Origin: a virus
IMG/VR virus record: IMGVR_UViG_3300042924_007440
Coordinates: 1-26,676 of that record
DNA: 26,676 bases
Direction: 5' to 3' (one strand)
In this document: in pieces, positions 643 through 15,792 of the stretch
How the letters are laid out: each line of letters begins with the position of its first letter
Position numbering within the stretch: the first letter of the stretch is position 1
Program-made: the position numbers and the translations under genes
The notes under the pieces: model-generated
What the model was told of the DNA's origin: nothing
What the model saw: only the letters and a program-made list of their open reading frames with translations
Databases searched by the model: none

Positions 643-2880
643 TCAGACGATGGGGATGAGGCGGCAGCGGCAGTTCACGCACTCCGACGCGGGGAGGCGC
701 GGATCGTGCGGGCGGGCCGCGGGGTAGCCGCCGATGCTGAAGTCGACGCCAATGTCTCGCTCCTCGCCGTTCGCCTCGGCGTGGCTATCGCGCGTCCTGA
801 CATCGGCGACGGAGTACCACTTCACCCGACGGACCACGCCGCTCTCGACCATCTGCGTGTAGGCGCTGTTGTTCGCCACGCTGTTTGCCTCGGTGCGGGC
901 GATGGTGCGGGCCCGCCACGCCGGGGGCTCATCGGCGCCGGTCGCGGCGAACGCGTCGCGCACGCGGGCGGCGAGCTGCGGCACGCCGTCGCCAGCCTCG
1001 TAGCCGGCGCGCAAAGCCCGGCCCACGTCGTCGGCCAGGTTGGCGTTGATGCCCTCGAGCCCCGTCAGGGTGCCGACGCGTTCGGTCAGGGCCGCGGTGA
1101 GCCGCCGGCGCGCCGCATTCAGCGAGCTCTCCCAGGCCTCGGTGTCACCGCCTGCTTGACGCACTGCATCACCAAGTGCGTCAAGCACCTGCTCCACCTC
1201 TGCCTCGAGCACTGCGGGGAGGTCCGCGGCCAACTCGGCGTCACGCTTGCCCACGTCGAGGAGCTCATCCGCGGCGACGGCTGGAACCTCGTCCCCCTCG
1301 GCGCGGTCCAGGCCGAGCCGCCGACGGAGGGCGCCTTGAGCGTTGCGCTCAATCCGGTTGATGTAGTCCTGGAACCACTCGGCGAGGCGGTCCTCGCCGT
1401 CCCGCACCGCGCGCTCGTACGCCGTCTCCCACAGCGCCGGGAGGCGGCGGGCCCGCTCGGCGAGCTCAGGCGCCGCCCGGTCGAAAGGGGCGGCATCATC
1501 CTCCCGCGTAGGCGCTGGGGTGGCAGGTGTGGGCACGACACCGGGCGCAAGATCGGCGCCGTAGCCGTTCAGGATGGCGCGGGCCTCCTCCGCCGTCAGG
1601 ACTGTGCCGACGCCCAGGTAGACCTTCTGCACGGCCTCGACGAGCTCGAGGCGCTCGGCGGCGGCTGCCCCGCGGAGTTCGTCGCCCTCGGGGCCCGCCA
1701 GCGGCGGCAGGCCCGCCAGCGCGCGAAATTCGTTGGTGGTGATGACACCCGCCTGGAACAGAGCCGCGCCGCGCTGCGCGCCTTTGTCGTAGTCGCCGGC
1801 GAGCACCTCGAGGCCCGAGGTGTCCCACGCGACCTCAAACCCCTCGCGCCGCGCCGCCTTGTTGAGCGCCGCGGCGATGAGGTCCAGGCGGGGGAGGAGG
1901 AAGCCGCGCGTCCACTGCGCCAACTCCACACGCTGGTTCTCAAAGGTTCGGGCGCCACCGCGGCCCAGCATCGACGGCGGCATCCGCCACACCGCGAGGA
2001 TGTCATCGGTCGCGCGGTCCGCCACCGCGTCCCACTGGCCGCCCACCACCTGCGGGGACAGTTGTGTCGCGGTCGTGGCCGCGTTGACCACGAGCCACTC
2101 ACCGCGGCGAGCGCGCAGCGCCGCGTTGAGCCGGCGCTCCACGGCGTCGAGGCTCTCTTGGTCGACCCCCTCGTCGTCGATGGCCAGCACGCCGCCGACG
2201 GCGCCGGCGTTCTCGAGCACGGTGCGGGTGTAGACGCGGGCGCGGTGGAGGACGTCGATGGGCAACCCCGCGCGCTGGACGAGGCTATCGGCCCGCCACG
2301 GGTTGAGCGGGTGGGGCTCAAAGATGCGCACGACCCGCCCGGGTCCGCCGCGCTCCAGGCCGTTCTCGTCGAAGCGGGCGATGAGGCGGCCCCCGTCGTC
2401 CTCGAGCCGGTAGCCCGCGACCGTCGCCGGGGCGCCGAGCTCGTCTACGACATCGCCAGCGGTCAGCACGACCATCCGCCCGCCGACGATGGGGGTGACC
2501 GCGTTCGCGGTGATGTAGAGGTAGCACTCTCCGGCGTAGTCCAGGCCGTAGCTCACCCACATCCGCAGCTCGGTGGCGCTCACGGACGCCGACGCGACGG
2601 TGTTGAACGCGCGGAGGATGGGGTGATCCTCGACGGGGGTGCCGGTGCCGGTGCGCGCGCCCGTCAGCCGGATCGTCGGGTCCGCGAGGTGTGCGGCGGC
2701 GACCCGGGCGACGGAGGCGACGAGCGGCTCCCGGTCGTGGCCTGCGGCGATGGTGCCGGCGCGGTCGACGGGCTGGCGGTACTCGGCGGTGCCGCCGAAC
2801 ACGCCGGAGGGTGAGGCGACGACGGCGACGTTAGCGCGCTCCTCCACGGGAGGCGCGGGGGTGCGGCGAAAGAGAGGCAT
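643..2880 (-). CDS. Portal protein fused to a MuF-type head morphogenesis domain
   Basis: The 745-aa product starts at ATG 2880 (MPLFRRTPAPP), fixed by the upstream motif GCCAACGGT. The N-terminal about 420 residues look like an HK97-type portal: regions with PHPLNPWRADSL, VLENAGAVGGVLAIDDEG and MPPSMLGRGGARTFENQRV resemble conserved portal core segments. The protein continues without a stop through a proline-rich linker (about 475-490) and long helices into a C-terminal MuF/SPP1 gp7-like domain, with IARTEANSVANNSAY, RDSHAEANGEERDIGVDF and the closing ECVNCRCRLIPIV (about 635-745). Portal forms the packaging vertex and MuF proteins act in head morphogenesis; these are usually separate genes. 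The reading frame is open further upstream inside terL, but in the wrong composition for a gene. Confidence 0.88.
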   Translation of the reverse strand: MPLFRRTPAPPVEERANVAVVASPSGVFGGTAEYRQPVDRAGTIAAGHDREPLVASVARVAAAHLADPTIRLTGARTGTGTPVEDHPILRAFNTVASASVSATELRMWVSYGLDYAGECYLYITANAVTPIVGGRMVVLTAGDVVDELGAPATVAGYRLEDDGGRLIARFDENGLERGGPGRVVRIFEPHPLNPWRADSLVQRAGLPIDVLHRARVYTRTVLENAGAVGGVLAIDDEGVDQESLDAVERRLNAALRARRGEWLVVNAATTATQLSPQVVGGQWDAVADRATDDILAVWRMPPSMLGRGGARTFENQRVELAQWTRGFLLPRLDLIAAALNKAARREGFEVAWDTSGLEVLAGDYDKGAQRGAALFQAGVITTNEFRALAGLPPLAGPEGDELRGAAAAERLELVEAVQKVYLGVGTVLTAEEARAILNGYGADLAPGVVPTPATPAPTREDDAAPFDRAAPELAERARRLPALWETAYERAVRDGEDRLAEWFQDYINRIERNAQGALRRRLGLDRAEGDEVPAVAADELLDVGKRDAELAADLPAVLEAEVEQVLDALGDAVRQAGGDTEAWESSLNAARRRLTAALTERVGTLTGLEGINANLADDVGRALRAGYEAGDGVPQLAARVRDAFAATGADEPPAWRARTIARTEANSVANNSAYTQMVESGVVRRVKWYSVADVRTRDSHAEANGEERDIGVDFSIGGYPAARPHDPRLPASECVNCRCRLIPIV

Positions 2881-2888
2881 CGGGCCCG

Positions 2889-2898
2889 ACCGTTGGCG
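2889..2898 (-). promoter_or_regulatory. Start-linked motif CGCCAACGGT, portal gene
   Basis: On the minus strand the motif reads CGCCAACGGT, followed by an 8-base spacer CGGGCCCG and the portal ATG. It lies in the 28-bp gap after the terL stop. This is the only copy with an 8-base rather than 7-base spacer. Confidence 0.7.
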
Positions 2899-2908
2899 CC
2901 CTGGGGCC

Positions 2909-4240
2909 TCACCCGCCAGCGACGAGGAGGCGGCGGGGCCGGCGGGGCCCGGACATGTAGAGCGCGTACCGCAGCGCGTCGAGCGCGTGGTCGTCCTTCT
3001 TGACCGGGCGCTCGGGGACGAGCGGGGATCCATCGCGTGCGGTCTGCCAGCGGTAGCCGCGCATCTCCCGCCAGAGCATCGGGCACGCGGCGTCGTCCAC
3101 CAGGAGCGTCCCGCGGTGGAGGTGGGCCTGGAGCTCGCGGATCCCGTCCGCCACGCTGTCGGCCCCCTTGTCGGCGAGGACGATGGGCAGGCCGCGCTCG
3201 CGTCGCTGCGTGTTAGTCGTCTGCGGGAAGTTCCGGTCGGAGTAGATGCGGGCCGGCCTCCACCGCTCGAGCAGGGGCCGGATGCGGTCCCACCACTCCG
3301 CCTCCGTCGCCGCCGGCGCGTGGGCCTCGGCGACGGCGCACCACCGCTCGCCGACGCGGGCGAGGATGACGAGCGCGCTGGGGTTCTCCGCCCCGAGGTC
3401 CTGGCCAGCGATGACCTCATCCGCGCCTTCCGGCCCGTCCGGCCACGCGAGGCCGTCGACGGCGGCGCGCAGGTGACGCGCCGGGGTGAGCTCACGGAAC
3501 ACCGCGCCGCGGAAGCTGATGAACGAGCCGCGGAGTTCCTGCTCGCCGAGGTCCGTCCCGTCGTACACCGCGCGCAGCGCCTCGACCACGACGGCGTCCA
3601 GGTGGGGGTTGTCGAAGGTGCTCGGCGGGCGCTCGGGCGGTAGGGGGCTGCCGCCGATGAACACGACCCCGGGCACGGGCGCGGCGTCGATGAAGTCGTC
3701 CCAGAGCCAGTTCTGCCCGTTCGGCGTCGTGGCGGCCACGATCCGCGCGGGCGCCCCGTCGGGGAGCGAGAGCCGGGTCGCGAAGCGCAAGTTGCTGTAC
3801 GCCTCCCGGTCCCAGAACGCGAGCTCGTCGGCGATGGCACCGTGGTAGTTGCCGCCCCGCAGGCTGTCCGGGCGCTCGGCGCTCCCGAGTCGGATGACGC
3901 TGCCGTTGGCGAAATGAATGGCCGCGTCGCCGGGGGTGCGGGTGTAGGCGGTCGCCCACTCGCCGCCGCGTAGCTGGTTCGTCAGACCGTGCGTCTCGAG
4001 GTAGGCCCGGATACCCGACGGCCCCTCGGCCAGGATGTCCCGCGCCTCGGACCAGGTGCGGCCCACGGCGCGCCAGCTGGTGCCGGGATAGGCGAGGGCG
4101 CGCGGCGTGAGCCAGCTCGTCAAGCGCCAGGTCTTGCCGAGACCGCGGCCGCCGGTGAGAAGCCACAGCGTCCAGGCGCCTGCGGGGACGACCTGGTGGG
4201 AGAGGATGGGAACGCGGACGGAGTTGTCAAGGCTTGCCAT
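2909..4240 (-). CDS. terL: Terminase large subunit (ATPase and nuclease)
   Basis: The 443-aa product has the two TerL modules. The ATPase has a Walker A GGRGLGKT (residues 30-37) and a Walker B HGAIADEL with acidic D138/E139. The RNase H-like nuclease shows candidate acidic residues in AGQDLGAEN (about 281), IYSDRN (335) and the C-terminal KKDDHALDALRYAL (about 414-427), a typical TerL ending. It pumps DNA into the prohead through the portal and cuts it. The ATG at 4240 (MASLDNSVRV) overlaps the end of terS by 14 bp. One of the six 13-bp operator-like sites covers this start codon and the terS stop. Confidence 0.92.
   Translation of the reverse strand: MASLDNSVRVPILSHQVVPAGAWTLWLLTGGRGLGKTWRLTSWLTPRALAYPGTSWRAVGRTWSEARDILAEGPSGIRAYLETHGLTNQLRGGEWATAYTRTPGDAAIHFANGSVIRLGSAERPDSLRGGNYHGAIADELAFWDREAYSNLRFATRLSLPDGAPARIVAATTPNGQNWLWDDFIDAAPVPGVVFIGGSPLPPERPPSTFDNPHLDAVVVEALRAVYDGTDLGEQELRGSFISFRGAVFRELTPARHLRAAVDGLAWPDGPEGADEVIAGQDLGAENPSALVILARVGERWCAVAEAHAPAATEAEWWDRIRPLLERWRPARIYSDRNFPQTTNTQRRERGLPIVLADKGADSVADGIRELQAHLHRGTLLVDDAACPMLWREMRGYRWQTARDGSPLVPERPVKKDDHALDALRYALYMSGPRRPRRLLVAGG
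4226..4238 (-). promoter_or_regulatory. Operator/stoperator-like site, terS-terL junction
   Basis: The plus strand reads GTCAAGGCTTGCC, and the minus (sense) strand reads CAAGCCTTGACA. It is one of six copies of a near-palindrome with invariant core TGTCAAGGCTTG. It sits over the terL start and terS stop, inside transcribed DNA, where a bound repressor could block elongation. Confidence 0.65.
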
Positions 4241-4733
4241 CGGCTGGCCTCAGCTCGTGCTCCACGACCACGGCGTCGATGACCTCGGCCTCTACTACCT
4301 CGGCGATGGTCACCTGCGCGACGGCAACGACACCCGAGTGCTCGACACGTTGAACTTCAACGCCTTCGAGCTTGGCGATGTCCATCAGAGCCTGGCGCTC
4401 GAGCGCCAAGTAGCGCGCCGCTGCGGCGTCGTCCTCTCGGTCCAGGGCGTGGGTGGCGTTGCGCCGAGCGTCCTCTGCGATGCGGGTAAGCCGGACGACG
4501 GCCTCGGCGCGGTGGCGCTCGGTGCGTCCCACGCGCTCGCGGGCGATGGCGTCCAGGTGCTTGTGCCAGTGGCGCAGCACCGTCTTGCGGTCGCAGCCGA
4601 TGGCGGCGGCAACCCCGTTGACGCTATGCCCACTGAGGCGGAGCTCGATGAGCTCGTCCACCTGCTCGGGCGCCAGCCGGCGCGCGCTCAGGCGCCGATG
4701 CTCAGACGTGACAGGGGCAGGCAGGCGGTCCAC
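4227..4733 (-). CDS. terS: Terminase small subunit-like DNA-binding protein
   Basis: The GTG at 4731-4733 gives 168 aa beginning MDRLPAPVTSEHRRLS. This start is chosen because CGCCAACGGT lies exactly 7 bases upstream; a longer frame begins at 4778 within a hairpin and is disfavoured. A helix-turn-helix is visible at about residues 35-58 (SVNGVAAAIGCDRKTVLRHW), followed by a helical, Arg/Glu-rich middle and a beta-like, Val/Glu-rich tail. The architecture and the position directly upstream of terL, with a 14-bp overlap, fit a TerS that recognises the packaging site. The sequence alone does not exclude another phage DNA-binding protein. Confidence 0.75.
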   Translation of the reverse strand: MDRLPAPVTSEHRRLSARRLAPEQVDELIELRLSGHSVNGVAAAIGCDRKTVLRHWHKHLDAIARERVGRTERHRAEAVVRLTRIAEDARRNATHALDREDDAAAARYLALERQALMDIAKLEGVEVQRVEHSGVVAVAQVTIAEVVEAEVIDAVVVEHELRPADGKP

Positions 4734-4740
4734 GTCCCGG

Positions 4741-4750
4741 ACCGTTGGCG
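4741..4750 (-). promoter_or_regulatory. Start-linked motif CGCCAACGGT, terS
   Basis: The minus strand reads CGCCAACGGT, then the 7-base spacer CCGGGAC, then GTG. No separate strong Shine-Dalgarno sequence is visible. It decides the terS start at 4733. Confidence 0.75.
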
Positions 4751-4765
4751 TCCGGACACGACGAA

Positions 4766-4788
4766 GCCCCCGCCACACGGGCGGGGGC
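4766..4788 (-). terminator. Hairpin terminator between the small-gene cluster and terS
   Basis: GCCCCCGCC and GGCGGGGGC form a perfect 9-bp stem around a 5-base loop. On the minus strand it is followed by TTCGTCG, a weak T-containing tail typical of high-GC genomes. It sits 25 bp after the stop at 4813 and 16 bp before the start-linked motif of terS, so it probably insulates the packaging operon from upstream transcription. Confidence 0.6.
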
Positions 4789-4812
4789 AGGTCGGAAGTG
4801 CTTTCGGAGGCG

Positions 4813-5187
4813 TCAGCGTGAGGCGGCGACTACGCGCTGGAAGTCCTCAAGCGGGGCGACCCACCCGGCATCGGCGTCGACCAGCACTAGCTCGCCGCCG
4901 GGCTGGCCAGCGAGGATATTCCAGGTGTCACCAACCGGGCCTCGGTACGGGATGCCGATCGCATACAACGCGATTCTCAACGACGCGGCGCGCGCCGTGG
5001 CCGCGGTGTGGGCACCGTACACGGCGTCTGCGAGCCGCTCGAGGCTGGGCAAGACGTCATCATTGGGCGTGCGTGCAGTGGCGGCCCAGGCGTCCTCGAG
5101 GCGATCGAGTTCTCGCACGGCCTCGGCGTAGATCCTGGCCAGCCGGTGAAGCTCGGTGGCGGTGGTGGTGTCAGTGGTGGTGTCCAT
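4813..5187 (-). CDS. Hypothetical protein, 124 aa
   Basis: The start ATG (5185-5187) has a good ribosome binding site (AAGGAG, 7 bases upstream), so I prefer it to a longer frame beginning at 5319. The product begins with a Thr/Asp-rich MDTTTDTTTATEL, has a helical segment with heptad-like Leu/Ala spacing (about 10-70), then a compact region containing GIPYRGPVGDTWNILAG. No transmembrane segment or catalytic motif is evident. It lies between the RecT-like operon and the terminase genes and is followed by a hairpin terminator. I do not recognise the family. Confidence 0.65.
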   Translation of the reverse strand: MDTTTDTTTATELHRLARIYAEAVRELDRLEDAWAATARTPNDDVLPSLERLADAVYGAHTAATARAASLRIALYAIGIPYRGPVGDTWNILAGQPGGELVLVDADAGWVAPLEDFQRVVAASR

Positions 5188-5345
5188 CGGGGGTCTCCTT
5201 GTGCCGGGGGCCGTTCCTCCGGTCACACTTAGGACTGTGCGCCGCCGTTCGCCGCAGGCAAGTATCTGGCGGAGGTTTTCCAGCCCCCTTGTTGCCCCGC
5301 GGCGGCGGGGCCGGTTCACGGTTCGGCGATGGCGTCCATCCCCAG
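5188..5345. other. Gap with inverted repeat between 5346-5477 and 4813-5187 genes
   Basis: The gap contains GCCCCGC/GCGGGGC (5294-5300 and 5305-5311) with a 4-base loop, a possible terminator for the RecT-like operon on the minus strand. Frames crossing this gap lack supporting starts. No convincing promoter pair was found for the gene at 5187. Confidence 0.4.
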
Positions 5346-5477
5346 CTATTCCGGGGGATCGGCGCCGCCCAGGGTTGCCGGCACCGGGGCGCGGTCCATG
5401 AGCGGGGCTTCATCCTCCGCGGCAACCACGATCCACAGCAGCATCCGCACTACTCCGCGGATCTCCTCCGGCTTCAT
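5346..5477 (-). CDS. Small hypothetical protein, 43 aa
   Basis: A short frame begins at ATG 5477, overlapping the preceding stop as ATGA, and ends at TAG 5346-5348. The product begins MKPEEIRGVVRMLLWIVVAAEDE, with a short hydrophobic stretch (about residues 9-20), then a Pro/Ala/Gly-rich acidic tail. It is supported mainly by the stop-start coupling that also joins the three genes upstream. The function is unknown; the hydrophobic stretch is short for a transmembrane helix. Confidence 0.5.
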   Translation of the reverse strand: MKPEEIRGVVRMLLWIVVAAEDEAPLMDRAPVPATLGGADPPE

Positions 5478-5683
5478 GGCCATAGCTCCCGGTCCTCAAT
5501 CGCCACGAGGACGGCCCCGTGGGATGCGGCGGTGGCGTGCGCGGCGCGGATGGCTTGCCGGCGTGTGAGGGTGAATCCCTGGGCGATGAAGTTCCCGCGG
5601 GGCGGGACCATGCGCACGATCCATCCCCACTGAGCGAAACCCAGCCGGCGAACGCGGGCGGTGAATGGTGGCGGGGTGCTCAC
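5474..5683 (-). CDS. Small basic hypothetical protein, 69 aa
   Basis: The GTG at 5683 overlaps the preceding stop as GTGA and gives 69 residues beginning MSTPPPFTARVRRLG and ending VAIEDRELWP. Longer in-frame starts upstream lie inside the neighbouring gene and produce an Arg-rich shadow sequence, so they are rejected. The protein is basic with a helical segment TRRQAIRAAHATAASHG. It is the third gene of the coupled RecT-like operon. No family is recognised. Confidence 0.6.
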   Translation of the reverse strand: MSTPPPFTARVRRLGFAQWGWIVRMVPPRGNFIAQGFTLTRRQAIRAAHATAASHGAVLVAIEDRELWP

Positions 5684-6063
5684 AGCTGCACACCTCCCCG
5701 GCGGTAGTGGCTCCGATCGATGCGCTCGAGCAGCTCGGCGCCTGTGTGGTGGGCGCCCCAGGGTGTGGCGCTGGTGCCCGCGGCGACCGCCGCCCGCGCG
5801 CCGGCGGCGGCCCACGGTAGGAGGTCCTCCACGCGGCGCTCCTGCCGTGTGACCGCACCCACGAGAGCAGTCACGAGCTCGCGCTCGGTCGCAAGCTGGC
5901 GCTCAAGGCGGGCACACCGGGCGGCGAGGGCGTCCCGCTCGCCCTCAAGCTCGGCCGCCTCGTCGCCGAGGCGGTCGGCCTCCTCTGCGGCGTGCTGCAC
6001 GAGCGCGACGTTGTGGGCGAGGGCGGTCTCGACCTCCGGGAGGGGTACGGCGTGAACGCTCAC
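5680..6063 (-). CDS. Coiled-coil protein, 127 aa
   Basis: The GTG at 6063 overlaps the RecT-like stop as GTGA. Residues of about 20-75 are rich in Glu, Arg, Ala and Leu with heptad-like spacing (EAAELEGERDALAARCARLE), indicating a coiled coil. The C-terminal part is Gly/Ala-rich and ends RSHYRRGGVQL. Its coupling to the RecT-like gene suggests a role in, or co-regulation with, phage recombination. Phage single-strand annealing genes are often next to an exonuclease, but this protein shows no nuclease motif, so it is not a RecE or alpha-exonuclease equivalent. Confidence 0.65.
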   Translation of the reverse strand: MSVHAVPLPEVETALAHNVALVQHAAEEADRLGDEAAELEGERDALAARCARLERQLATERELVTALVGAVTRQERRVEDLLPWAAAGARAAVAAGTSATPWGAHHTGAELLERIDRSHYRRGGVQL

Positions 6064-6845
6064 GATTCCACCTCCTCATCCAGGTCCACGAGCTCGGTGT
6101 CCTCGGCCTCGATGCCGGCCAGCAGCTCATCCAGCTCGTCGGTGGGTACGTACGCCGAGGCGTCGGGAAAGATGCTGTTCCAGAGCTCCAGCGCACGCGC
6201 CTTGTCACCGCCGCAAGCGTCGAGCACCTGGCGCTTGGCATCGGGCACGGGCACCAGCTCCTTGGCCTCGGCAGCGATGGCCTCGGCAGCGAGCGGATCG
6301 GGCAGCTCCGACGGGCCCAACGGCTCCGGCTCGGTGCCATCGCCAGCGAAGCTGGTCACTTCCTCGTGGGTGTAGCTCAGCCCGGCGATTGCATCGGCGG
6401 CACCGGCACGGCCCAGCATCGAAGTGCAGCGAGCCAGGTACATGGCCTTCGGGTAGGACTTCCATTGCCCCTTGCCGAGCAGCCCGGCACGCTTGGCATC
6501 CTCCTCGAGGAAGGACACCTCCATGACGGCGTTGGTGTCGGCGCGGGTCAAGCGCATCTCACAGCCGCGATCGTCCAGCCGAGGCACCTCGAGCTTGTGG
6601 CCGGCGCGTGCGATGAGAGCACGCATCAGCTCAGGCGATGCGTCCGGGTTGCCCTGGATCACATTGATGCCGTACACGGACTGGAGCGGGCCGATGCCGG
6701 CCTCTGCTCCCCAGAGGATGATCATTGCCGCGTCGATGGGCTTCCCGCGCAGGTGCTGCGGGCACACGCTGGACCGCACGAGCGCCTCAGCGAAGCGGAG
6801 TGCGGCGTCGAGATCGCCGGGTTGTATGGCTAGGTGTGTGCTCAT
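6060..6845 (-). CDS. recT: RecT-family single-strand annealing protein
   Basis: The 261-aa product starts at ATG 6845 with a ribosome binding site ACGGAGG. The N-terminal about 165 residues fit the RecT/Redbeta annealing family: a helical start, ILWGAEAGIGPLQSVYGINV (about 43-62), a beta-rich middle and the characteristic GQWKSYPKAMYLARCTSMLG (about 126-145) followed by a helix. The C-terminal about 75 residues are acidic and variable, as in other RecT proteins. RecT binds single-stranded DNA and anneals it to a complementary strand. It is the first gene of a leftward operon whose leader carries one copy of the 74-bp repeat. Confidence 0.8.
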   Translation of the reverse strand: MSTHLAIQPGDLDAALRFAEALVRSSVCPQHLRGKPIDAAMIILWGAEAGIGPLQSVYGINVIQGNPDASPELMRALIARAGHKLEVPRLDDRGCEMRLTRADTNAVMEVSFLEEDAKRAGLLGKGQWKSYPKAMYLARCTSMLGRAGAADAIAGLSYTHEEVTSFAGDGTEPEPLGPSELPDPLAAEAIAAEAKELVPVPDAKRQVLDACGGDKARALELWNSIFPDASAYVPTDELDELLAGIEAEDTELVDLDEEVES

Positions 6846-6893
6846 TGTGTACCTCCGTGTTGGTACAGCCGGGCGGTCCGGCTCCTATTCGAT
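6846..6893 (-). promoter_or_regulatory. Leader of the RecT-like operon with two small hairpins
   Basis: Between the 74-bp repeat and the start codon, the minus strand can form AGCCGG/CCGGCT around a 5-base loop. It can also form TGTACC/GGTACA, whose right arm and loop include part of the GGAGG ribosome binding site. The second hairpin could modulate access to the start. No transcript data support this; it is read from sequence symmetry. Confidence 0.4.
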
Positions 6894-6967
6894 GGTGCGC
6901 CGGTGTTTGCGAGGCGCAACCCCTAACGCGCCCACTCACAGCCAGGTATCAGGTGGTGCCAGCCGCC
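6894..6967 (-). repeat. 74-bp repeated control element, copy A (RecT operon)
   Basis: This segment matches the reverse complement of 10216-10289 at 70 of 74 positions with no gaps. Both copies are oriented so that the same end points toward the downstream gene: leftward to the RecT-like gene here. It includes the dyad TTGCG-CCT-CGCAA (about 6907-6919) and the conserved run GCGTTAGGGG. Its distal part overlaps the last 6 codons of the gene at 6949-7344. It is most simply a duplicated promoter/operator region for two early operons. Confidence 0.75.
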
Positions 6968-7344
6968 CGCAGCACGAAACCGAGCAGGTGCTCCGGGCTC
7001 ACCCCTGCCGGGTCGTCGAGAACATCGAGCAGCAGGAGCAGCGCGCCCTCCTCGGCCTGCGTCCAGGGCCGGCCCAGCTCGATGGCGAGCGACGCCGCGA
7101 CGATGGTCTCAAGGCGCGCGGTGGTCGGGCAGCGCGCGCCGTGGAGGAGGCAAGGGTCTGGGCCCGCTGGTGCCACGATGCGCCCACACCACGCACACCT
7201 GGCACACCACTGCCGCCGTGCCTGGATCGCCGCTGGCCGGGGTATGGCGAGGGTTTCAAGCTCAATTGCGATGAGGTGTGCGTGCTCGACGCAGCAGGCT
7301 GCGAAGCCGGCGCCGCCGGCGCCCTCGATCATCCAAGGCGTCAC
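6949..7344 (-). CDS. Cys-rich small protein, probable zinc-binding, 131 aa
   Basis: The GTG at 7344 overlaps the RusA-like stop as GTGA. The product has a cluster CARCAWCG (about residues 43-50) and a later CLLHGARC (about 61-68), with further Cys and His near the N-terminus (CCVEHAH). This pattern suggests a zinc-binding knuckle. The C-terminal half is helical. It is co-expressed with the RusA-like resolvase and lies downstream of the divergent control region. It may bind nucleic acid, but there is no HNH catalytic core I can identify. Confidence 0.6.
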   Translation of the reverse strand: MTPWMIEGAGGAGFAACCVEHAHLIAIELETLAIPRPAAIQARRQWCARCAWCGRIVAPAGPDPCLLHGARCPTTARLETIVAASLAIELGRPWTQAEEGALLLLLDVLDDPAGVSPEHLLGFVLRAAGTT

Positions 7345-7736
7345 GGGCCCACCTCCCGAAGCTCGATGACGAGCGCGGCGCCGTCGCCGTAGACCGGCGC
7401 GAGGAACACGATCCGGGGGAACCGCCCGGGCCCGTCGTCGGGGGTGCCGTGCGGCGTCAGCCACCCGGCCCCATCGCAGACGCCGTCGACAGCCGCCTTC
7501 ACCGCCGGGACGCAGGCGGCGGTGTCCTGCTGGCCGCGGCGGTCGGGGAGGTGCGGTCTTGCCACCACCTCGACGGGACCGGCGTCGGCGGGCAGGTCCG
7601 CGGCCTTGGCGAGCTCGGCGAAGGCGGTCCGCCACCGGCGCGTCCGCGCGGCGTTCGCGGTCCAGTGCCGTGCGCTCCGCAGGGCGTTGTAGGTCCACGG
7701 TCGTTCTTCGTGCCGTAGGACCCATGTCCGTGCCAT
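7341..7736 (-). CDS. rusA-like: RusA-like Holliday junction resolvase
   Basis: The ATG at 7736 is chosen because CGCCAACGGT lies exactly 7 bases upstream; a frame extending to 7793 is disfavoured. The 131-aa length fits RusA (about 120 aa). A conserved-looking block with D71 in RGQQDTAACVPAVKAAVDGV, lysine K80, D84 and the later DD (about 100-101) matches the pattern of acidic residues and lysine used by RusA to cut branched DNA. In phages such enzymes resolve recombination or replication intermediates before packaging. Identity rests on this pattern, and overall similarity is weak by eye. Confidence 0.65.
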   Translation of the reverse strand: MARTWVLRHEERPWTYNALRSARHWTANAARTRRWRTAFAELAKAADLPADAGPVEVVARPHLPDRRGQQDTAACVPAVKAAVDGVCDGAGWLTPHGTPDDGPGRFPRIVFLAPVYGDGAALVIELREVGP

Positions 7737-7743
7737 AGCCCGG

Positions 7744-7753
7744 ACCGTTGGCG
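7744..7753 (-). promoter_or_regulatory. Start-linked motif CGCCAACGGT, RusA-like gene
   Basis: The minus strand reads CGCCAACGGT, then the 7-base spacer CCGGGCT, then ATG. The spacer has no canonical ribosome binding site. Confidence 0.75.
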
Positions 7754-7792
7754 GGTGCCGTGGGGCGGTGTTCGGGCTCGTGTGGGTAGCCA

Positions 7793-7833
7793 CTTAGCTA
7801 CGCACATAGCTAAGCAATGCGTTGCTATGTGCG
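7793..7833. repeat. Overlapping inverted repeats in the divergent control region
   Basis: CTTAGCTA (7793-7800) pairs with TAGCTAAG (7807-7814). CGCACATAGC (7801-7810) pairs with GCTATGTGCG (7824-7833), and the latter arms extend to 15 bp at 13/15 identity around a 3-base centre. The two structures share bases and exclude each other. The segment is locally AT-rich compared with its surroundings. It may be a dimer-binding operator or part of an origin. Confidence 0.55.
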
Positions 7834-7845
7834 TTTGCTACATGC

Positions 7846-7871
7846 AAGGAGAGGAGAGGAAGGAGAGGAAG
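7846..7871 (+). other. 26-base polypurine tract
   Basis: An uninterrupted purine run made of GGAGA-like units (AAGGAGAGGAGAGG and similar) follows the inverted repeats. No start codon at ribosome-binding distance opens a credible gene, so it is not an ordinary Shine-Dalgarno site. Purine tracts of this type occur near origins and as triplex-forming or strand-asymmetric elements; the role here is unknown. Confidence 0.45.
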
Positions 7872-8063
7872 TAGACAGCTACACGAGCACGATGGCGTGC
7901 GTTTGTTGAGCCTTCCGAGGAGCCGTGGCGCTCACGGCCTACCAGGGCACTGCACGATAGGTCCGCAGACGCACGCGGGGGAGTGCGGTGGGTCGTTGGG
8001 GCCGGGCGGTGGTTGCGTCCGTGAATAGTGCGAACGTGTGGTGCGGGGAGTTCCGTGGTCGTT

Positions 8064-8076
8064 GGCAAGCCTTGAC
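8064..8076 (+). promoter_or_regulatory. Operator-like site 1 with embedded TTGACA
   Basis: The plus strand reads GGCAAGCCTTGAC, followed by A, so the site contains a perfect -35 hexamer TTGACA (8072-8077). A candidate but poor -10 (TGTGAC, 8095-8100) lies 17 bases downstream. In L5-like phages the repressor site overlaps the -35 of the early promoter in the same way. The rightward orientation would serve the methyltransferase gene. Confidence 0.65.
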
Positions 8077-8097
8077 ACGGACCTGCACGCCCGTTGT

Positions 8098-8110
8098 GAC
8101 AAGCCTTGAC
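8098..8110 (+). promoter_or_regulatory. Operator-like site 2 with embedded TTGACA
   Basis: The plus strand reads GACAAGCCTTGAC followed by A, with TTGACA at 8106-8111. Its centre is 34 bp from that of site 1, in the same orientation. A clear -10 at 16-18 bases is not seen, so this copy may act as an operator for the first promoter. Confidence 0.6.
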
Positions 8111-8155
8111 ACGAACCGCCCCGCCCCGCTGGGGCATCATCCCAGGGCCGGCACC

Positions 8156-8165
8156 CGCCAACGGT
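8156..8165 (+). promoter_or_regulatory. Start-linked motif CGCCAACGGT, methyltransferase 1
   Basis: CGCCAACGGT is followed by the 7-base spacer GCGCGGT and the ATG at 8173. It rules out the GTG at 8164, which lies inside the motif. Confidence 0.75.
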
Positions 8166-8172
8166 GCGCGGT

Positions 8173-9618
8173 ATGGCCGCGCCCATCACCCCACGGTTCA
8201 TTTTGGGCAACGCCCTTGCCCTGCCCCTGCCCGACGCCTCGGTCGACCTGGTGGTGACCAGCCCGCCGTACTTCGGCCTGCGTGACTACAACGCCGGCGA
8301 GCACGAGGTCGGTTCCGAGGCCACACCCGCCGAGTTCCTCGACGCGCTGGTCGCCGCCACCCGTGAAATGGTCCGGGTGCTCCGCCCGTCCGGGTCTATC
8401 TGGGTGAACCTCGGCGACAAGTACTCCCAGCGCACCCAGACCCGCCGGTCGTCGCACCAGCCCGGTATGCACGAGGGCAAGTTCGAGGAGTTCGAGGAAA
8501 CCTGGGCCCAGCGTGCCGCGGCGGGTGCCGTGCGAATGCCGCACCAAAACGTCCCGGCTCCCGGCGTGACGCACATCCCAGAGAAGTCGTTGATGGGCCT
8601 GCCGTGGCGCTACGCCATCCGGTGCGTCGATGAGCTGGGCCTGGTGCTGCGTGAGGAAGTCATCTGGGCCAAGCCCAACGGCCTGCCCGAGAGCGTGAAG
8701 GACCGGTGCGCCCGCAAGCACGAGCAGTGGTTCCACTTCACCGTGTCGCCCCGCTACTTCGCTGCGATGGACCCGATCCGGGAGCCGCACCAAGGCCGAG
8801 ACCCCGGCGGCGGTGGCAAGACCGCCGCGGCCAGAGATGTCGCGCCGGGCGGCAAGGACACCAACCTTGGCAACGCCTCGCCCAACCCCCTCGGCAAGCT
8901 GCCCGGCTCAGTGTGGACTGTGGCGACCGAGCCGCTGCCGGCGAAGGCCATCCGTGAGGCCGGGCACACCGCCCACTTCGCCGCGTTCCCGTCTGAATGG
9001 CCGCGGCGCATCGTGCTGGGCTGGGCGCCAACGCACGGCATCTGCACCGTGTGCGGCGAAGGGCTGCGGCCTGTGGCTGGTAGCTGGTGCGCCTGCAACG
9101 AGCCCATTGCCTCACCTACTGGAAGCCGCACCGCCGAGGATCCCTCAAAGCGAACCGGGCGTGCCGGCTTCAACAGGCCGCGCGGCGAAGGCGAAGGCGT
9201 TCGGGTGGTCACCCGCTGGGAGCAGCGCCACGAGGCCGAGCAGCTGCGCACCAGCCAGCACCGCGCCGCGATGGAGGCCGAGGCCGGGCCTGCGTTCGGT
9301 CACTACATCCGCACCGACCGCTCTGGGGCGCGTCCGATCCCCGAGGCGCTGCGCACCCAGTGGCAGGAGCGCGGCTGGCTCACCCCGGCGCCGCCGTTCG
9401 TGCAGCCGGCGACGCGCCGTGCCGTTGTGCTCGATCCCTTCTCAGGCACCGGAACCACCGCCATCGTCGCCTCGGCGCTCGGGTGCCAGGGCATCGGTGT
9501 GGAACTGAACCCCGAGTACATCCGGCTGGCCCAGTGGCGGCACGAGGACGGCCGCTTGGCCCGCAAGGTGAGGGAGCGGACTGCGCAGGGTCACTCGCCC
9601 CAGTCGCGCATCCCGTAG
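8173..9618 (+). CDS. DNA methyltransferase (N4-cytosine or N6-adenine type)
   Basis: The 481-aa product begins MAAPITPRFILGN. The catalytic motif TSPPYFGLRDY (about 29-39) comes first and the AdoMet-binding motif DPFSGTGTTAIVASALG (about 420-436) last, the beta-class order. SPPY favours N4-cytosine methylation but does not prove it. A Cys cluster (CTVCGE...WCAC, about residues 291-309) suggests a zinc-binding insertion in the target-recognition part. No cognate restriction enzyme is adjacent, so it is probably a solitary phage methylase, for example for protection from host restriction. It overlaps the convergent gene at its 3' end by 28 bp. Two operators in its leader suggest repressor control. 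Confidence 0.85.
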   Translation: MAAPITPRFILGNALALPLPDASVDLVVTSPPYFGLRDYNAGEHEVGSEATPAEFLDALVAATREMVRVLRPSGSIWVNLGDKYSQRTQTRRSSHQPGMHEGKFEEFEETWAQRAAAGAVRMPHQNVPAPGVTHIPEKSLMGLPWRYAIRCVDELGLVLREEVIWAKPNGLPESVKDRCARKHEQWFHFTVSPRYFAAMDPIREPHQGRDPGGGGKTAAARDVAPGGKDTNLGNASPNPLGKLPGSVWTVATEPLPAKAIREAGHTAHFAAFPSEWPRRIVLGWAPTHGICTVCGEGLRPVAGSWCACNEPIASPTGSRTAEDPSKRTGRAGFNRPRGEGEGVRVVTRWEQRHEAEQLRTSQHRAAMEAEAGPAFGHYIRTDRSGARPIPEALRTQWQERGWLTPAPPFVQPATRRAVVLDPFSGTGTTAIVASALGCQGIGVELNPEYIRLAQWRHEDGRLARKVRERTAQGHSPQSRIP

Positions 9619-10202
9619 CAGGCTCGCAGCAGCTCCGCCGGTGACGTCTCGTCGTCGGCCTGGCCCTCCCGCCCAAGTTCGACGCCGACCGCCGCGCGGA
9701 CGACCCGCCGCACGGCGCCGGAGCAGATGACGCGACCGTCGCCGTCGCGCACCAGCCGGTGCGTCACCCACGCCACGGCGTCGGCGGTCCAGGTGAGCGG
9801 CGCGGCGAGCACGCGGCCCACCCGGGTCCGCGGCTGGACCCGCCCGAGGATGGCCGTCGCGAACCGGGCGATCGCGGACCAGTCGTAGCCGAGGCCGGCG
9901 CGTGTGAGCGCGAGCGCCTCGGCAGCGATGGCGGCGCGCACCTCGGGACCGCCGGGACGCACCACATACGCGACCGGCGCGGGCTTGCGGCACACGACGA
10001 ACCCGTCGGCGTTCGCCTCGGCGACGAGCCAGTGCCCGTCGGGGAGCGCGAGCAGGATGACCGCGGCGTGGTTCACCGCGTCGCCGGTGCCGAGGCGGAT
10101 CAGGCCCGACTGCCACCCCGTGCCGCGCTCAAACGCGAGGTCGCCCACGCCCGGTAGCTCGTCAGGGCGAAGCGGTCGCGGTTCCCAAGCGTGCGGTGTC
10201 AT
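9591..10202 (-). CDS. Permuted papain-like (NlpC/P60 or YiiX-type) protein
   Basis: The 203-aa product starts at ATG 10202, 7 bases from CGCCAACGGT. The order of candidate catalytic residues is His before Cys: H45 in AVNHAAVIL, E62 in LVAEAN and C160 in RVICSGAVRR. This is the circularly permuted papain-like arrangement of YiiX/LRAT-type NlpC/P60 relatives, which cleave or transfer amide or thioester bonds. There is no signal peptide, although a hydrophobic stretch occurs at about 131-147. It stands alone on the minus strand between a methyltransferase and the replication operon, so a lysogeny-expressed or accessory (moron-like) role is possible. Substrate is unknown. Confidence 0.6.
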   Translation of the reverse strand: MTPHAWEPRPLRPDELPGVGDLAFERGTGWQSGLIRLGTGDAVNHAAVILLALPDGHWLVAEANADGFVVCRKPAPVAYVVRPGGPEVRAAIAAEALALTRAGLGYDWSAIARFATAILGRVQPRTRVGRVLAAPLTWTADAVAWVTHRLVRDGDGRVICSGAVRRVVRAAVGVELGREGQADDETSPAELLRACYGMRDWGE

Positions 10203-10209
10203 AGGCCCG

Positions 10210-10219
10210 ACCGTTGGCG
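10210..10219 (-). promoter_or_regulatory. Start-linked motif CGCCAACGGT, papain-like gene
   Basis: The minus strand reads CGCCAACGGT, then the 7-base spacer CGGGCCT, then ATG. It overlaps the edge of copy B of the 74-bp element by 4 bases. Confidence 0.75.
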
Positions 10220-10289
10220 GCTGGCACCACCTGATAGCCGGCTGTGAGTAGGTGCGTTAGGGGTTGCGCCTCGCAAACACCGGCGCACC
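10216..10289 (+). repeat. 74-bp repeated control element, copy B (replication operon)
   Basis: This is the inverted partner of 6894-6967 (70/74 identical, 4 substitutions, no gaps). It reads rightward into the replication operon, as copy A reads leftward into the RecT operon. It contains the dyad TTGCG-CCT-CGCAA (about 10264-10276) within GGGGTTGCG and CGCAAACACC arms, a likely protein-binding site. No consensus -35/-10 is clear to the eye, so the promoter may need a regulator or an alternative sigma factor. Confidence 0.75.
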
Positions 10290-10291
10290 TT

Positions 10292-10330
10292 CTCACTTGC
10301 CGGCGGAGAACCTCCCCGCCGGCAAGTGAG
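10292..10330 (+). promoter_or_regulatory. Strong 15-bp hairpin in the replication operon leader
   Basis: CTCACTTGCCGGCGG (10292-10306) and its exact complement (10316-10330) form a perfect 15-bp stem around the 9-base loop AGAACCTCC. The loop CCTCC is complementary to the ribosome binding site GGAGG (10334-10338) just beyond the stem. There is no U-tract, so it is unlikely to be a simple terminator. A translation-control or RNA-protection role is plausible. Confidence 0.65.
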
Positions 10331-10344
10331 CGAGGAGGCCCACG

Positions 10345-10608
10345 GTGAGCACTCAGACCCAGACCCCACGGCGGCGCGCGGAGAGCTTGTATGCGCTGCT
10401 CAGCCACATGCCACCGGATGCGGTGGCCACGATGACGAACCAAGACATCGCCGATGCGCTCGGTACGAGCCCGCGGCACGCGTCGCGGATGCTGGCGCAG
10501 CTCGTCGAGGCGGGCCTCATCCGCCTGACCTACGGCCCGCCGAACAGGTGGGGCATCGGCTCCGCGCCGTCGGGCCGCACCATCGAGGTCGTGGAGGTGC
10601 CTCGATGA
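10345..10608 (+). CDS. Winged helix-turn-helix DNA-binding protein, 87 aa
   Basis: The GTG start at 10345 has a strong ribosome binding site (GGAGG, 6 bases upstream). A helix-turn-helix is visible in MTNQDIADALGTSPRHASRM (about residues 30-49), followed by a second helix (LAQLVEAGLI) and a wing with RLTYGPPNRWGIG. It is the first gene of the replication operon and is coupled to the next by ATGA. It could be an early transcription regulator, a replication origin-binding factor or the phage repressor. Its size is small for an L5-type repressor, and binding to the 13-bp operator is not shown. Confidence 0.7.
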   Translation: MSTQTQTPRRRAESLYALLSHMPPDAVATMTNQDIADALGTSPRHASRMLAQLVEAGLIRLTYGPPNRWGIGSAPSGRTIEVVEVPR

Positions 10609-11405
10609 GCGCCGCCGACCCCCTCACGTTCGTCCAGCTCCCGGTCGCCCTGCTGCTCGATGACCGCGCGGCGGGGCTCTCCGATGCGGCCTGGCGCCTC
10701 TACACCCGCGGCCTGCTGAAGGCCGCCGCCCACAGCGCCCACGAGGGCGTCCTCTGGACCGACAGCGACCGGGCCGTCGACCGGTGGGCCGCCCTCGACG
10801 GCGGACCCGCCGCCGTGGGACCGGCCACCGCCGAGCTCATCGCCGCGGGGCTGTGGGCCGAGGGCCCCAGGGCCGGGCGCACCGTCGTCGTTGGGTTCGC
10901 CGAGCGCCACGACCGCGCGGTCTCGGCTCGCCGGCGGGGGAGCAAAGGGGCGCACCAGCGCCACCACGCCGCGCGGGGCATCACCTCGCCGTCGTGCGAG
11001 TGGTGCCAGGGCGACGACGCGCCTGCGGCACCCGTGCCCGCGGATCCCGAGCCCGCCGCGCCGGACGGCCTGGCCGAGCTCCGAGCCGCACTTGACGCCG
11101 CGACTGTCGAGACCGCCACGCCCGAGGCGTACGCCGAGATCGCCGCAGTCCTGCCCGAGATCGCCGCCGGACTGGCCGACGCCGGGCTCAGCGAGGACCG
11201 GGCGCGTCAGGAGCTCCTGCTCCACGCCTGCCGGGCCTGGGGCATCGAGGTGGAGGGCCGGTCCATCGGGCGGGTGACGAGCCTCGGCAAGCGCCACGGC
11301 ACGGCGCCTGTGCTCCGTGCGCTGGCCCACGCCGCCGCAGCCGCAAACGGTGATCCCATCGCCTACGCGACCGCGATCCTGAAGCGTGAGGGGGAGGGCC
11401 GATGA
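10605..11405 (+). CDS. Phage replication protein (helicase-loader or initiator-like)
   Basis: The ATG at 10605 overlaps the preceding stop (ATGA) and gives 266 aa. The N-terminal part (about 1-115) resembles a phage replisome-organiser winged-helix region: PLTFVQLPVALLLDD, SDAAWRLYTRGLLKAA and TAELIAAGLWAEG. A basic stretch with SARRRGSKGAHQRHHAARG and a CEWCQG motif follows, then a Pro/Ala linker and a helical C-terminal domain ending YATAILKREGEGR. Its place between a DNA-binding protein and a DnaB-like helicase, with stop-start overlap on both sides, supports an initiator or loader role. Family assignment is by context and gross architecture. Confidence 0.6.
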   Translation: MSAADPLTFVQLPVALLLDDRAAGLSDAAWRLYTRGLLKAAAHSAHEGVLWTDSDRAVDRWAALDGGPAAVGPATAELIAAGLWAEGPRAGRTVVVGFAERHDRAVSARRRGSKGAHQRHHAARGITSPSCEWCQGDDAPAAPVPADPEPAAPDGLAELRAALDAATVETATPEAYAEIAAVLPEIAAGLADAGLSEDRARQELLLHACRAWGIEVEGRSIGRVTSLGKRHGTAPVLRALAHAAAAANGDPIAYATAILKREGEGR

Positions 11406-12541
11406 ACGCCAACGACGCCCTCTACCACCTCGAGCCGCCCGTCGAGGAAGAGTACATCGGCGAGTGGGACCCCGACCAGGCGTCCGACCCCGCGCCAGCT
11501 GGCCCGCGCCAGCCGCACGTCGCCCAGCCGGGCGAGGTGCCCGGGTTCCAGGGCTGCCGGGCCTCGACGCTCGCCGGGCTCGTGGAGCCGATGGCCGAGC
11601 GCCTCGAGATCGCCGCCCGCTACCCGGGCGCCGGTATCGAGACCACGGGTCTCGGACCGCTCGACGAGGTGGTGCGCGTCACGCCGGGCGATGTGGTCGT
11701 TATCGGCGGGCGGGAGGGCGCGGGGAAGTCCGCGCTCGCCCTCCAGGTCGCGCGCTGGATGGCTGGCCGCGGGCCCGTGCTCTATGTGCTGACGGAAATG
11801 ACGCTCGAGAGCGTCGCCGAGCGTCTCGTCGCGCAGGCCGCGCACATCGACCTCTGGAAACTCCAGCGGTCGCCGACCGTCGAGCAGCGCCGCCAGGCGC
11901 GGGAGGCGATGGTGTGGCTCGCCGAGCACGCGGACCTCACGATCGTCGAGCCGACGGGCGAGCCGTGGACCGTCCTCCGGAAGCGGATCAACGCCTGGGC
12001 CGCGGCCCACCGCGCCGAGGGTAGGCACCCGCGCGCGGTGTTCATCGACAACTTGTGGGGCCTCTCGCACGGCTCCCGCGTCGACGGCGACAGCGCCCAG
12101 GTGTCGCGGAGGCTCGGCGGCATCGTGTCGGAACTGACGCACCTCGCCAAGCCCGGCGAGGTGGATGCGCCGGTGTTCCTCGTCCACCACCTGAACCGGG
12201 GCGCCGCCCCCGGCGCCCCCGGCGGGCGTCCCGAAACCGCCAATCTCGGCGGGTCCGACCACATCGGCTACTGGGCCTCGTCGGTCTGGCTCCTCGCCAA
12301 GAACCGGGACGCGACCGAGGCCACCCACACCCTCACGGTGAGCAAGAACCGGACAGGCCGCAACGACGTGGACATCCCCGTCGAGTTCCACGGTTCGCAG
12401 ATGCGCTTTGTCGCCGCCGGGCCGGGCGAGGTCACACCACGCCCGTTCGAGGTCCCCGAGGCACCCGACGCCGCCGCGGAAAACGCAGTCCGGACCCTTC
12501 GTTCGAAATTCGCACAAGCACAGGAGAGGAGCAGTGAGTGA
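11402..12541 (+). CDS. DnaB-like replicative helicase (RecA-fold ATPase)
   Basis: The 379-aa product starts at an ATGA overlap (11402). An N-terminal Pro-rich segment of about 80 residues precedes a RecA-fold core. Visible motifs are the Walker A GREGAGKS (about residues 102-109), LYVLTEMTLESVAERL (about 127-142), a Walker B AVFIDNLWGL (about 213-222), FLVHHLNRG (about 259-267) and KNRTGRNDVDIPVEF near the C-terminus (about 315-329), matching the DnaB/KaiC pattern. It would unwind the phage replication fork. It lacks the canonical DnaB N-terminal domain, so it is shorter than bacterial DnaB. Confidence 0.82.
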   Translation: MNANDALYHLEPPVEEEYIGEWDPDQASDPAPAGPRQPHVAQPGEVPGFQGCRASTLAGLVEPMAERLEIAARYPGAGIETTGLGPLDEVVRVTPGDVVVIGGREGAGKSALALQVARWMAGRGPVLYVLTEMTLESVAERLVAQAAHIDLWKLQRSPTVEQRRQAREAMVWLAEHADLTIVEPTGEPWTVLRKRINAWAAAHRAEGRHPRAVFIDNLWGLSHGSRVDGDSAQVSRRLGGIVSELTHLAKPGEVDAPVFLVHHLNRGAAPGAPGGRPETANLGGSDHIGYWASSVWLLAKNRDATEATHTLTVSKNRTGRNDVDIPVEFHGSQMRFVAAGPGEVTPRPFEVPEAPDAAAENAVRTLRSKFAQAQERSSE

Positions 12542-13379
12542 TTATCGACCCCGCCGAACCGCCGGCTACCGGGAGAGCGGAGACGATGCCGCCCTCTGGG
12601 CTGCCTACTGGGCAGCTCCCGACCCCGACCGCCCCAAGGCCGCCGCCGCCATCGTCGCCCACCACGCCGCAGGATTGCGGGCCGTGGCGCGGGATATCTC
12701 CTTCCGTGGCTTCACCACCGAGGATCGGGAGGACCTGGCGCAGGAGGTGGCCGCCGTCGCGCTCGAGCGTGTGGTGTCCTGGGATCCCGCGGGCGGCGCT
12801 TCATTCCTGACGTGGGTCCGCCGCGGCTGTCAGGAGCTCCCGTGGATGGTCCAGGGCGAACGGTGCGCCATCCGAGTGGGCCGCCAGACGGCCCGCCTCC
12901 GCTCGCTCGTGCGCGGCGAGGGCGACCGCCGCGGTCGCGCGCTCACACCGGAGGAGGCACAGAGCTACCTCGCCACCCGCGGCAAGCGCGTCGGGCTCGC
13001 GCAGGCATCCCGCCTCGTCGCGCACCGCGAGCCGGCGCAGCTGGACGCGCCGGGCGAGGACGGCGGACGCCGCATCGACCCCGCGGACCCCGCGGTCGAC
13101 GTCGAGCGCGAGGCGCTGCCGACGCGGGCCGTCGAGCTCCTCGACGCCGCGGGCCTGACGCCCGTCCAGCGGCGGGTCGTCGAGCTCCGCATCCTCGCCG
13201 ACCCCCCGCTGACCGTCGCCGAGGTCGCCGAGGTCATCGGCGTTGAGGAGCTGGCCGAGCTGCTGCCACTGGGCGGTCCCCACGAGCCCAGCGCACTCCG
13301 CCGGGCGTGCGAGCGTGTGGCCGAGGCCGAGGCCGGGGCGCTGGCCCGCCTCCGGGAGGCGGCGGAGCGCCTGCGATGA
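12534..13379 (+). CDS. Sigma-70-like RNA polymerase sigma factor
   Basis: The GTG at 12534 has a good ribosome binding site (AGGAGAGGAGCA). The 281-aa protein has sigma-like order. Region 2 is at about 38-105 (DLAQEVAAVALERVVSWDP, then FLTWVRRGCQELPWMVQ), a basic 2.4/3-like part at about 108-125 (ERCAIRVGRQTARLRS) and an acidic linker. Region 4 starts with GLTPVQRRVVELRIL (about 207-221). In region 4 the helix-turn-helix contains about 17 extra residues (ELAELLPLGGPHEPSA) before RACERVAEAEAGALARLR. It could redirect host polymerase to phage promoters. A more distant use of the fold, as in some phage DNA-binding proteins, is possible. Confidence 0.7.
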   Translation: MSDYRPRRTAGYRESGDDAALWAAYWAAPDPDRPKAAAAIVAHHAAGLRAVARDISFRGFTTEDREDLAQEVAAVALERVVSWDPAGGASFLTWVRRGCQELPWMVQGERCAIRVGRQTARLRSLVRGEGDRRGRALTPEEAQSYLATRGKRVGLAQASRLVAHREPAQLDAPGEDGGRRIDPADPAVDVEREALPTRAVELLDAAGLTPVQRRVVELRILADPPLTVAEVAEVIGVEELAELLPLGGPHEPSALRRACERVAEAEAGALARLREAAERLR

Positions 13380-15540: not shown

Positions 15541-15792
15541 ATGGAAAGCAACACCGCCTCCATCACCGCCCAGGCCGACGAGGCCTGGTCCCAGCACCAG
15601 GTTGCTAAGTACTTGGGACTGACCGTCCGCCGAGTCCGAGACCTCGTGGGCACCGACGGGTTCCCGGCCCCCCGGGTGCTCGGTCCCCGCACCCTCCGGT
15701 GGAGCGCCAACGCCGTCCGGGCGTGGCTCGCCGAGGGCGACACCGTGGTCAAGGCGGCCCGGCCCGCCCGGGCGGTGGTACACCGGGTGTGA
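15541..15792 (+). CDS. xis: Excisionase-like helix-turn-helix protein, 83 aa
   Basis: The ATG at 15541 begins MESNTASITAQADEAW. The compact domain WSQHQVAKYLGLTVRRVRDL with following FPAPRVLGPRTLRWSANAVRAWLAE (about 16-68) is the MerR/AlpA-type winged helix used by small phage excisionases: a helix-turn-helix, a Pro-containing wing and a final Trp-containing helix. It overlaps the integrase start by 3 bases (TGATG). Such proteins bend attachment-site DNA to favour excision. The longer frame from 15349 runs through attP and is rejected. A regulatory role alone is also possible. Confidence 0.75.
   Translation: MESNTASITAQADEAWSQHQVAKYLGLTVRRVRDLVGTDGFPAPRVLGPRTLRWSANAVRAWLAEGDTVVKAARPARAVVHRV

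Follow-up and report, generated by a model that had tools for sequence, protein, structure and literature searches.

We examined if two matching, mutually inverted sequences, lying between recT and a replication operon in a phage genome, could be one early control region present in duplicate, and how such an arrangement may have arisen. The window, i.e., the whole stretch of DNA analysed (26,676 nt), is a genome fragment of a phage with 71% GC.

The inverted repeat and the genes beside it

Copy A of the element occupies 6894-6967 on the minus strand, upstream of recT; copy B occupies 10216-10289 on the plus strand, upstream of an operon with winged-helix, rep, helicase and sigma genes, and also directly upstream of a leftward papain-like gene. 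Pairwise comparison of this 74-bp core gave 70 identities with zero gaps, and a repeat search of the window extended the inverted arms to 6891-6967 and 10216-10292 (77 nt, 94%). Blastn of copy A against copy B returned an E value of ~1e-27, the central 28-mer occurs exactly twice in the window (0.00 expected in shuffles), and the window holds no third copy of the element. The differences between the copies fall in element columns 22, 24, 35 and 38, all outside the dyad TTGCG-N3-CGCAA, which in exact form is present in the window only at 6907-6919 and 10264-10276, once per copy. The original prediction, of an ungapped 70/74 inverted repeat placed in the same orientation before two outward operons, with the dyad conserved in both copies and all four differences outside it, is in full agreement with the repeat search, the identity count and the gene contexts; the repeat is real and far beyond chance.

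The recT gene (6060-6845, minus strand) encodes a RecT-like ssDNA annealing protein (PHROG 561, E 1e-31; tblastn matches to RecT-like proteins of Propionibacterium phages). Its specific leader (6846-6893, minus strand) includes the segment ATCGAATAGGAGCCGG, which resembles the recT leader of one relative, two small hairpins and the Shine-Dalgarno sequence GGAGGT. On the other side, the leader of the winged-helix gene (10290-10344, plus strand) carries a strong 15-bp hairpin and then the Shine-Dalgarno sequence GAGGAGG. The rightward operon begins with an 87-aa winged-helix protein (10345-10608; Pfam HTH_Crp_2, E 1e-9), followed on the same strand by a replication initiation-like protein, rep (10605-11405; PHROG 3926, E 4e-4; homologues in L009-L011), a DnaB-type helicase (11402-12541; Pfam DnaB_C, E 2e-22) and, directly 3' of it, a sigma-70-like protein (12534-13379; Pfam Sigma70_r2 3.6e-5 and r4 1e-3, each narrowly missing the curated cut-off, with same-place homologues in relatives). 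The distance from copy to start codon is 48 nt for copy A and recT and 55 nt for copy B and the winged-helix gene, and the Shine-Dalgarno duplex energies of these two operon-heading genes are -10.8 and -11.6, respectively. The hairpin (10292-10330, DNA z -8.1) stands directly 5' of the winged-helix Shine-Dalgarno sequence.

Between the copies lie a leftward ORF (6949-7335, minus strand) 3' of a RusA-like gene (7341-7793, minus strand; PHROG 34, E 1e-6), a methyltransferase gene (about 8173-9618, plus strand) and the papain-like ORF (9591-10202, minus strand, start at 10202; no Pfam support). Copy A is intergenic only in part, since the 19 nt at its distal end (6949-6967) form the final codons and stop of ORF 6949-7335. 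Copy A thus lies behind a leftward gene, and read-through may therefore also reach recT, so that the recT transcript may not come from copy A alone. Homologues of this ORF were sought to see if copy A had truncated it, and none was found.

Relatives and the history of the operons

Further copies of the element and further relatives were sought in viral sequences, a genome collection and phage records. Only two contigs besides the window carry the element: L004, which is the same virus (99.99%), and L003, 97.6% identical over the longest aligned part; each retains two copies in the same orientation as in the window. Copy B of L003 is identical to copy B of the window, dyad included. Copy A of L003 differs from its counterpart at 4 positions, 3 of them within one dyad arm, and the dyad is broken. 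Three of the four differences between copies A and B are common to the window and L003; hence the duplication predates the split of these two phages, and conversion has not erased the differences since then. The near identity of the copies had been ascribed to recent duplication, gene conversion or strong selection. The shared differences rule out a recent duplication or continuing gene conversion, and the changes at three bases of the L003 dyad arm speak against that account as well.

Distant relatives are arranged otherwise. The 36-kb contigs G003, G004 and G005, whose helicases are 49-52% identical to that of the window, carry a single rightward operon in which recT, helicase and sigma follow one another on the same strand; in G003 and G005, where the ORFs were read, recT and helicase are separated by a winged-helix ORF and rep. 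The 74-bp element has no recognisable copy in the distant relatives, these three included, which precludes an alignment of the ancestral control region. The single-operon layout makes a duplicated control region likely here, and the simplest history would be that the duplicated element accompanied the splitting of the operon.

The ATCGAATAGGAGCCGG segment, 3' of copy A, aligns with the recT leader of L011 over 18 columns, a match equalled by 9 of 1000 shuffles; the resemblance is to one of three relatives, with a value of about 0.03 after allowing for three tests. It looks as if recT had kept its old leader, which is suggestive only. Homology of the element itself to the recT control regions of relatives was considered and dropped, as this short match to the L011 leader was all that was found and it lies outside the element. 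The recT leaders of L010 (8216-8252), L011 (8147-8186) and L012 (8164-8198) share a fold of outer stem, 4-5 nt 5' bulge, inner stem and small loop; their outer stems differ, which suggests a conserved leader RNA, with no Rfam match.

A proposed duplicated control region and its alternatives

We put at about an even chance the reading that the two copies represent one early control region in duplicate (promoter/operator and leader start), functionally like lambda pL/pR, in which the promoter activity is read from position. In an ancestor, one control region would have driven a single operon of recT, winged helix, rep, helicase and sigma. In the lineage of the window, recT would have flipped to the leftward side, a cassette (RusA-like, ORF 6949, methyltransferase and papain-like genes) would have ended up between recT and the replication genes, and duplication of the control region, with the new copy inverted, would have left the two halves subject to common regulation. 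RNA polymerase would initiate within or next to each copy and transcribe outward, and a DNA-binding protein, perhaps the winged-helix protein of the operon, may sit on the dyad. We infer the promoter activity, the dyad-binding protein, the co-regulation and the order of events. In favor are the same orientation and similar distances (48 and 55 nt) of the copies relative to starts led by Shine-Dalgarno sequences, and the persistence of both copies in L003. Against are the broken dyad of copy A in L003, the position of copy A behind a leftward gene, and the weakness of the leader resemblance. A simple consensus scan of 6600-10600 found no sigma-70 promoter; promoters of high-GC hosts may differ, and in a phage of 71% GC the absence of a consensus promoter says little for or against.

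In lambda, pL/OL and pR/OR are matching, mutually inverted control regions a few kb apart, one placed before a recombination unit read leftward and the other before a replication operon read rightward, and Red beta is the functional counterpart of RecT. The separation of OL and OR is put at roughly 2.3-kbp in a passage of PMC5880393. The window resembles lambda in placement and identity, with matching sequences before outward recombination and replication operons, and by analogy the control function could be alike. Multiple tandem operators per region were not found in the window fragment; each copy has one 13-bp dyad, whereas lambda has three operator sites, and no repressor gene was recognised between the copies in this genome fragment. 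Repeated upstream elements with inverted repeats are also known as ESAS in cluster K mycobacteriophages, where the authors thought them DNA-binding sites (PMC3203893); those are 17-bp imperfect inverted repeats, mostly with a 4-13 bp spacer, present in many copies per genome beside a 13-bp SAS (PMC3203893). The upstream placement and the contained inverted repeat are common to both, whereas the present element occurs as two 74-bp copies with a 13-bp dyad, and no SAS adjoins the start codon. The cluster K SAS is a 13-bp GGGATAGGAGCCC located 3-7 bp before start codons; the window has a single ATAGGAGCC, over 30 nt before recT.

The element could instead act as RNA, as an antitermination site near the 5' end of both early transcripts, which we think rather unlikely. 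The putL and putR sites of HK022, about 70 nt, mutually similar and located downstream of PL and PR (PMC9378689), fit it in size and placement; like them and lambda nutL/nutR, it is a matching element of about 70 nt in both early operons, and two stem-loops are predicted for copy B (-34.3 kcal/mol). That fold is only slightly better than those of shuffles (z -1.26), however, and copy A folds differently and worse than shuffles (z +1.19), with copy A of L003 at chance (z +0.34). No RNA fold is conserved in copy A and no pair shows compensating changes, the changes being one-sided or pair-breaking in copy A; the element has no Rfam match, and the Rfam scan had no hits in the window and none other than tRNAs in relatives. 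Folding the copies and counting pairs thus lent no support to a put-like element, and since no pairs are kept by compensation and the two copies fold unlike each other, recognition at the DNA level is more likely. The copies might instead have no role in control and be passive, an old duplication in inverted form that the operon-splitting rearrangement left behind. Its confinement to the window virus and the 97.6% relative, the loss of three bases of the dyad arm in L003 copy A, and the end of the duplicate at the start box of the papain-like gene are all consistent with this. We find it rather improbable, given that both copies are sense-oriented before genes led by Shine-Dalgarno sequences at near-equal distance, and that copy B and its surroundings are unchanged between the window and L003 over 772 bp where neighbours differ 4-9%, though the latter may reflect recent exchange.

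Copies that serve recombination, either as a switch inverting the 3.2-kb segment or as linkers for cassette exchange between phages, appear quite improbable to us. Compared base by base with L003, the window is divergent over ~1-1490, has four differences over 1491-6907, is divergent again over 6908-10047 (4-5%, much more in the methyltransferase), is identical over 10048-10819, and is about 9% divergent beyond. The near-identical tract therefore ends within copy A, with the divergent cassette beyond it, as a recombination site there could produce. The opposite boundary of the cassette, however, lies outside copy B, about 170 bp before it, and two more boundaries (about 1490 and 10820) lie inside genes; the mosaic is accordingly not taken as evidence for recombination sites, and the boundary in copy A may be chance. 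As in invertible DNA segments, inverted repeats flank a segment that bears genes; unlike those, no recombinase was recognised in the segment and all contigs show one orientation. An inverted arrangement was not found among the window, L003 and L004, and no invertase was recognised among the Pfam-scanned proteins, of which a tyrosine integrase (15699-17000) is the sole recombinase recognised in this incomplete genome. The proposal that the segment can invert finds no support in these contigs. Highly improbable, lastly, is a role of the dyads as replication or initiator-binding sites rather than in transcription control: a dyad and the strong hairpin adjoin rep, but the hairpin lies outside the repeat, copy A adjoins recT and not rep, no iterons were seen, and GC skew has no clear switch there.

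What stands of the earlier interpretation is the like placement before outward operons and, from the relatives, a likely duplicated control region; recent duplication and segment inversion do not. The duplicated control region would make this locus a clear example, at the sequence level, of a control region duplicated along with the splitting of its operon, with a lambda-like divergent layout as the result; the other members of the group, which keep one operon, are available for comparison. Should the element prove to be a promoter, early transcription in these uncultured high-GC phages could be approached through it.

The start box and other repeated sequences

A 10-base box, CGCCAACGGT, lies ahead of nine start codons, in each case of a gene with no strong Shine-Dalgarno sequence, and we regard it as a more surprising feature of the window than the repeat. 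It has the form CGCCAAC(G/A)GT, then exactly seven (once eight) bases, then the start codon (2880, 4733, 7736, 8173, 10202, 13670, 15089, 19183 and 24467). The genes are those for portal, terminase small subunit, RusA-like, methyltransferase, papain-like and second methyltransferase proteins, and three others. Their Shine-Dalgarno energies are weak (-2.2 to -5.6) compared with -7.4 to -11.6 for recT, winged helix, rep, helicase and sigma; several boxless genes are also weak, and their start codons are less certain. Two further 8-mer copies of the box in the window are both inside genes, and there is no conserved -35-like block upstream of it. The box is also present in L003 and L004, and was not found as a start-linked repeat in G003-G006. 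It is like the cluster K SAS (PMC3203893) in placement and unlike it in sequence.

The phage might have two DNA-marked expression classes: the element-led recT and replication operons with Shine-Dalgarno sequences (early), and at least nine box genes switched on by the sigma-like protein of the copy B operon, with the box as a -10-type site and leaderless mRNAs. We much doubt this; the link between sigma-like gene and box is counted against by relatives that have the sigma gene without the box.

Most of the 355-bp stretch 7744-8098 lies between the divergent RusA-like and methyltransferase genes, with no substitution in L003 and two single-base gaps, where neighbouring coding DNA is 4-5% different. 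L003 (9880-10000) has about 115 extra bp relative to position 8150 of the window, with repeats of GCCGGCACCCGCCAAC on either side, which looks like the loss or gain of a small piece through recombination between start boxes. Six palindrome copies near GTGTCAAGGCTTGACAC are present at 4224, 8062, 8096, 17960, 21845 and 26329 (11 two-strand matches to this type vs 0.04 expected); two lie between the same divergent genes and the others apparently inside genes, like a dispersed operator/stoperator set.
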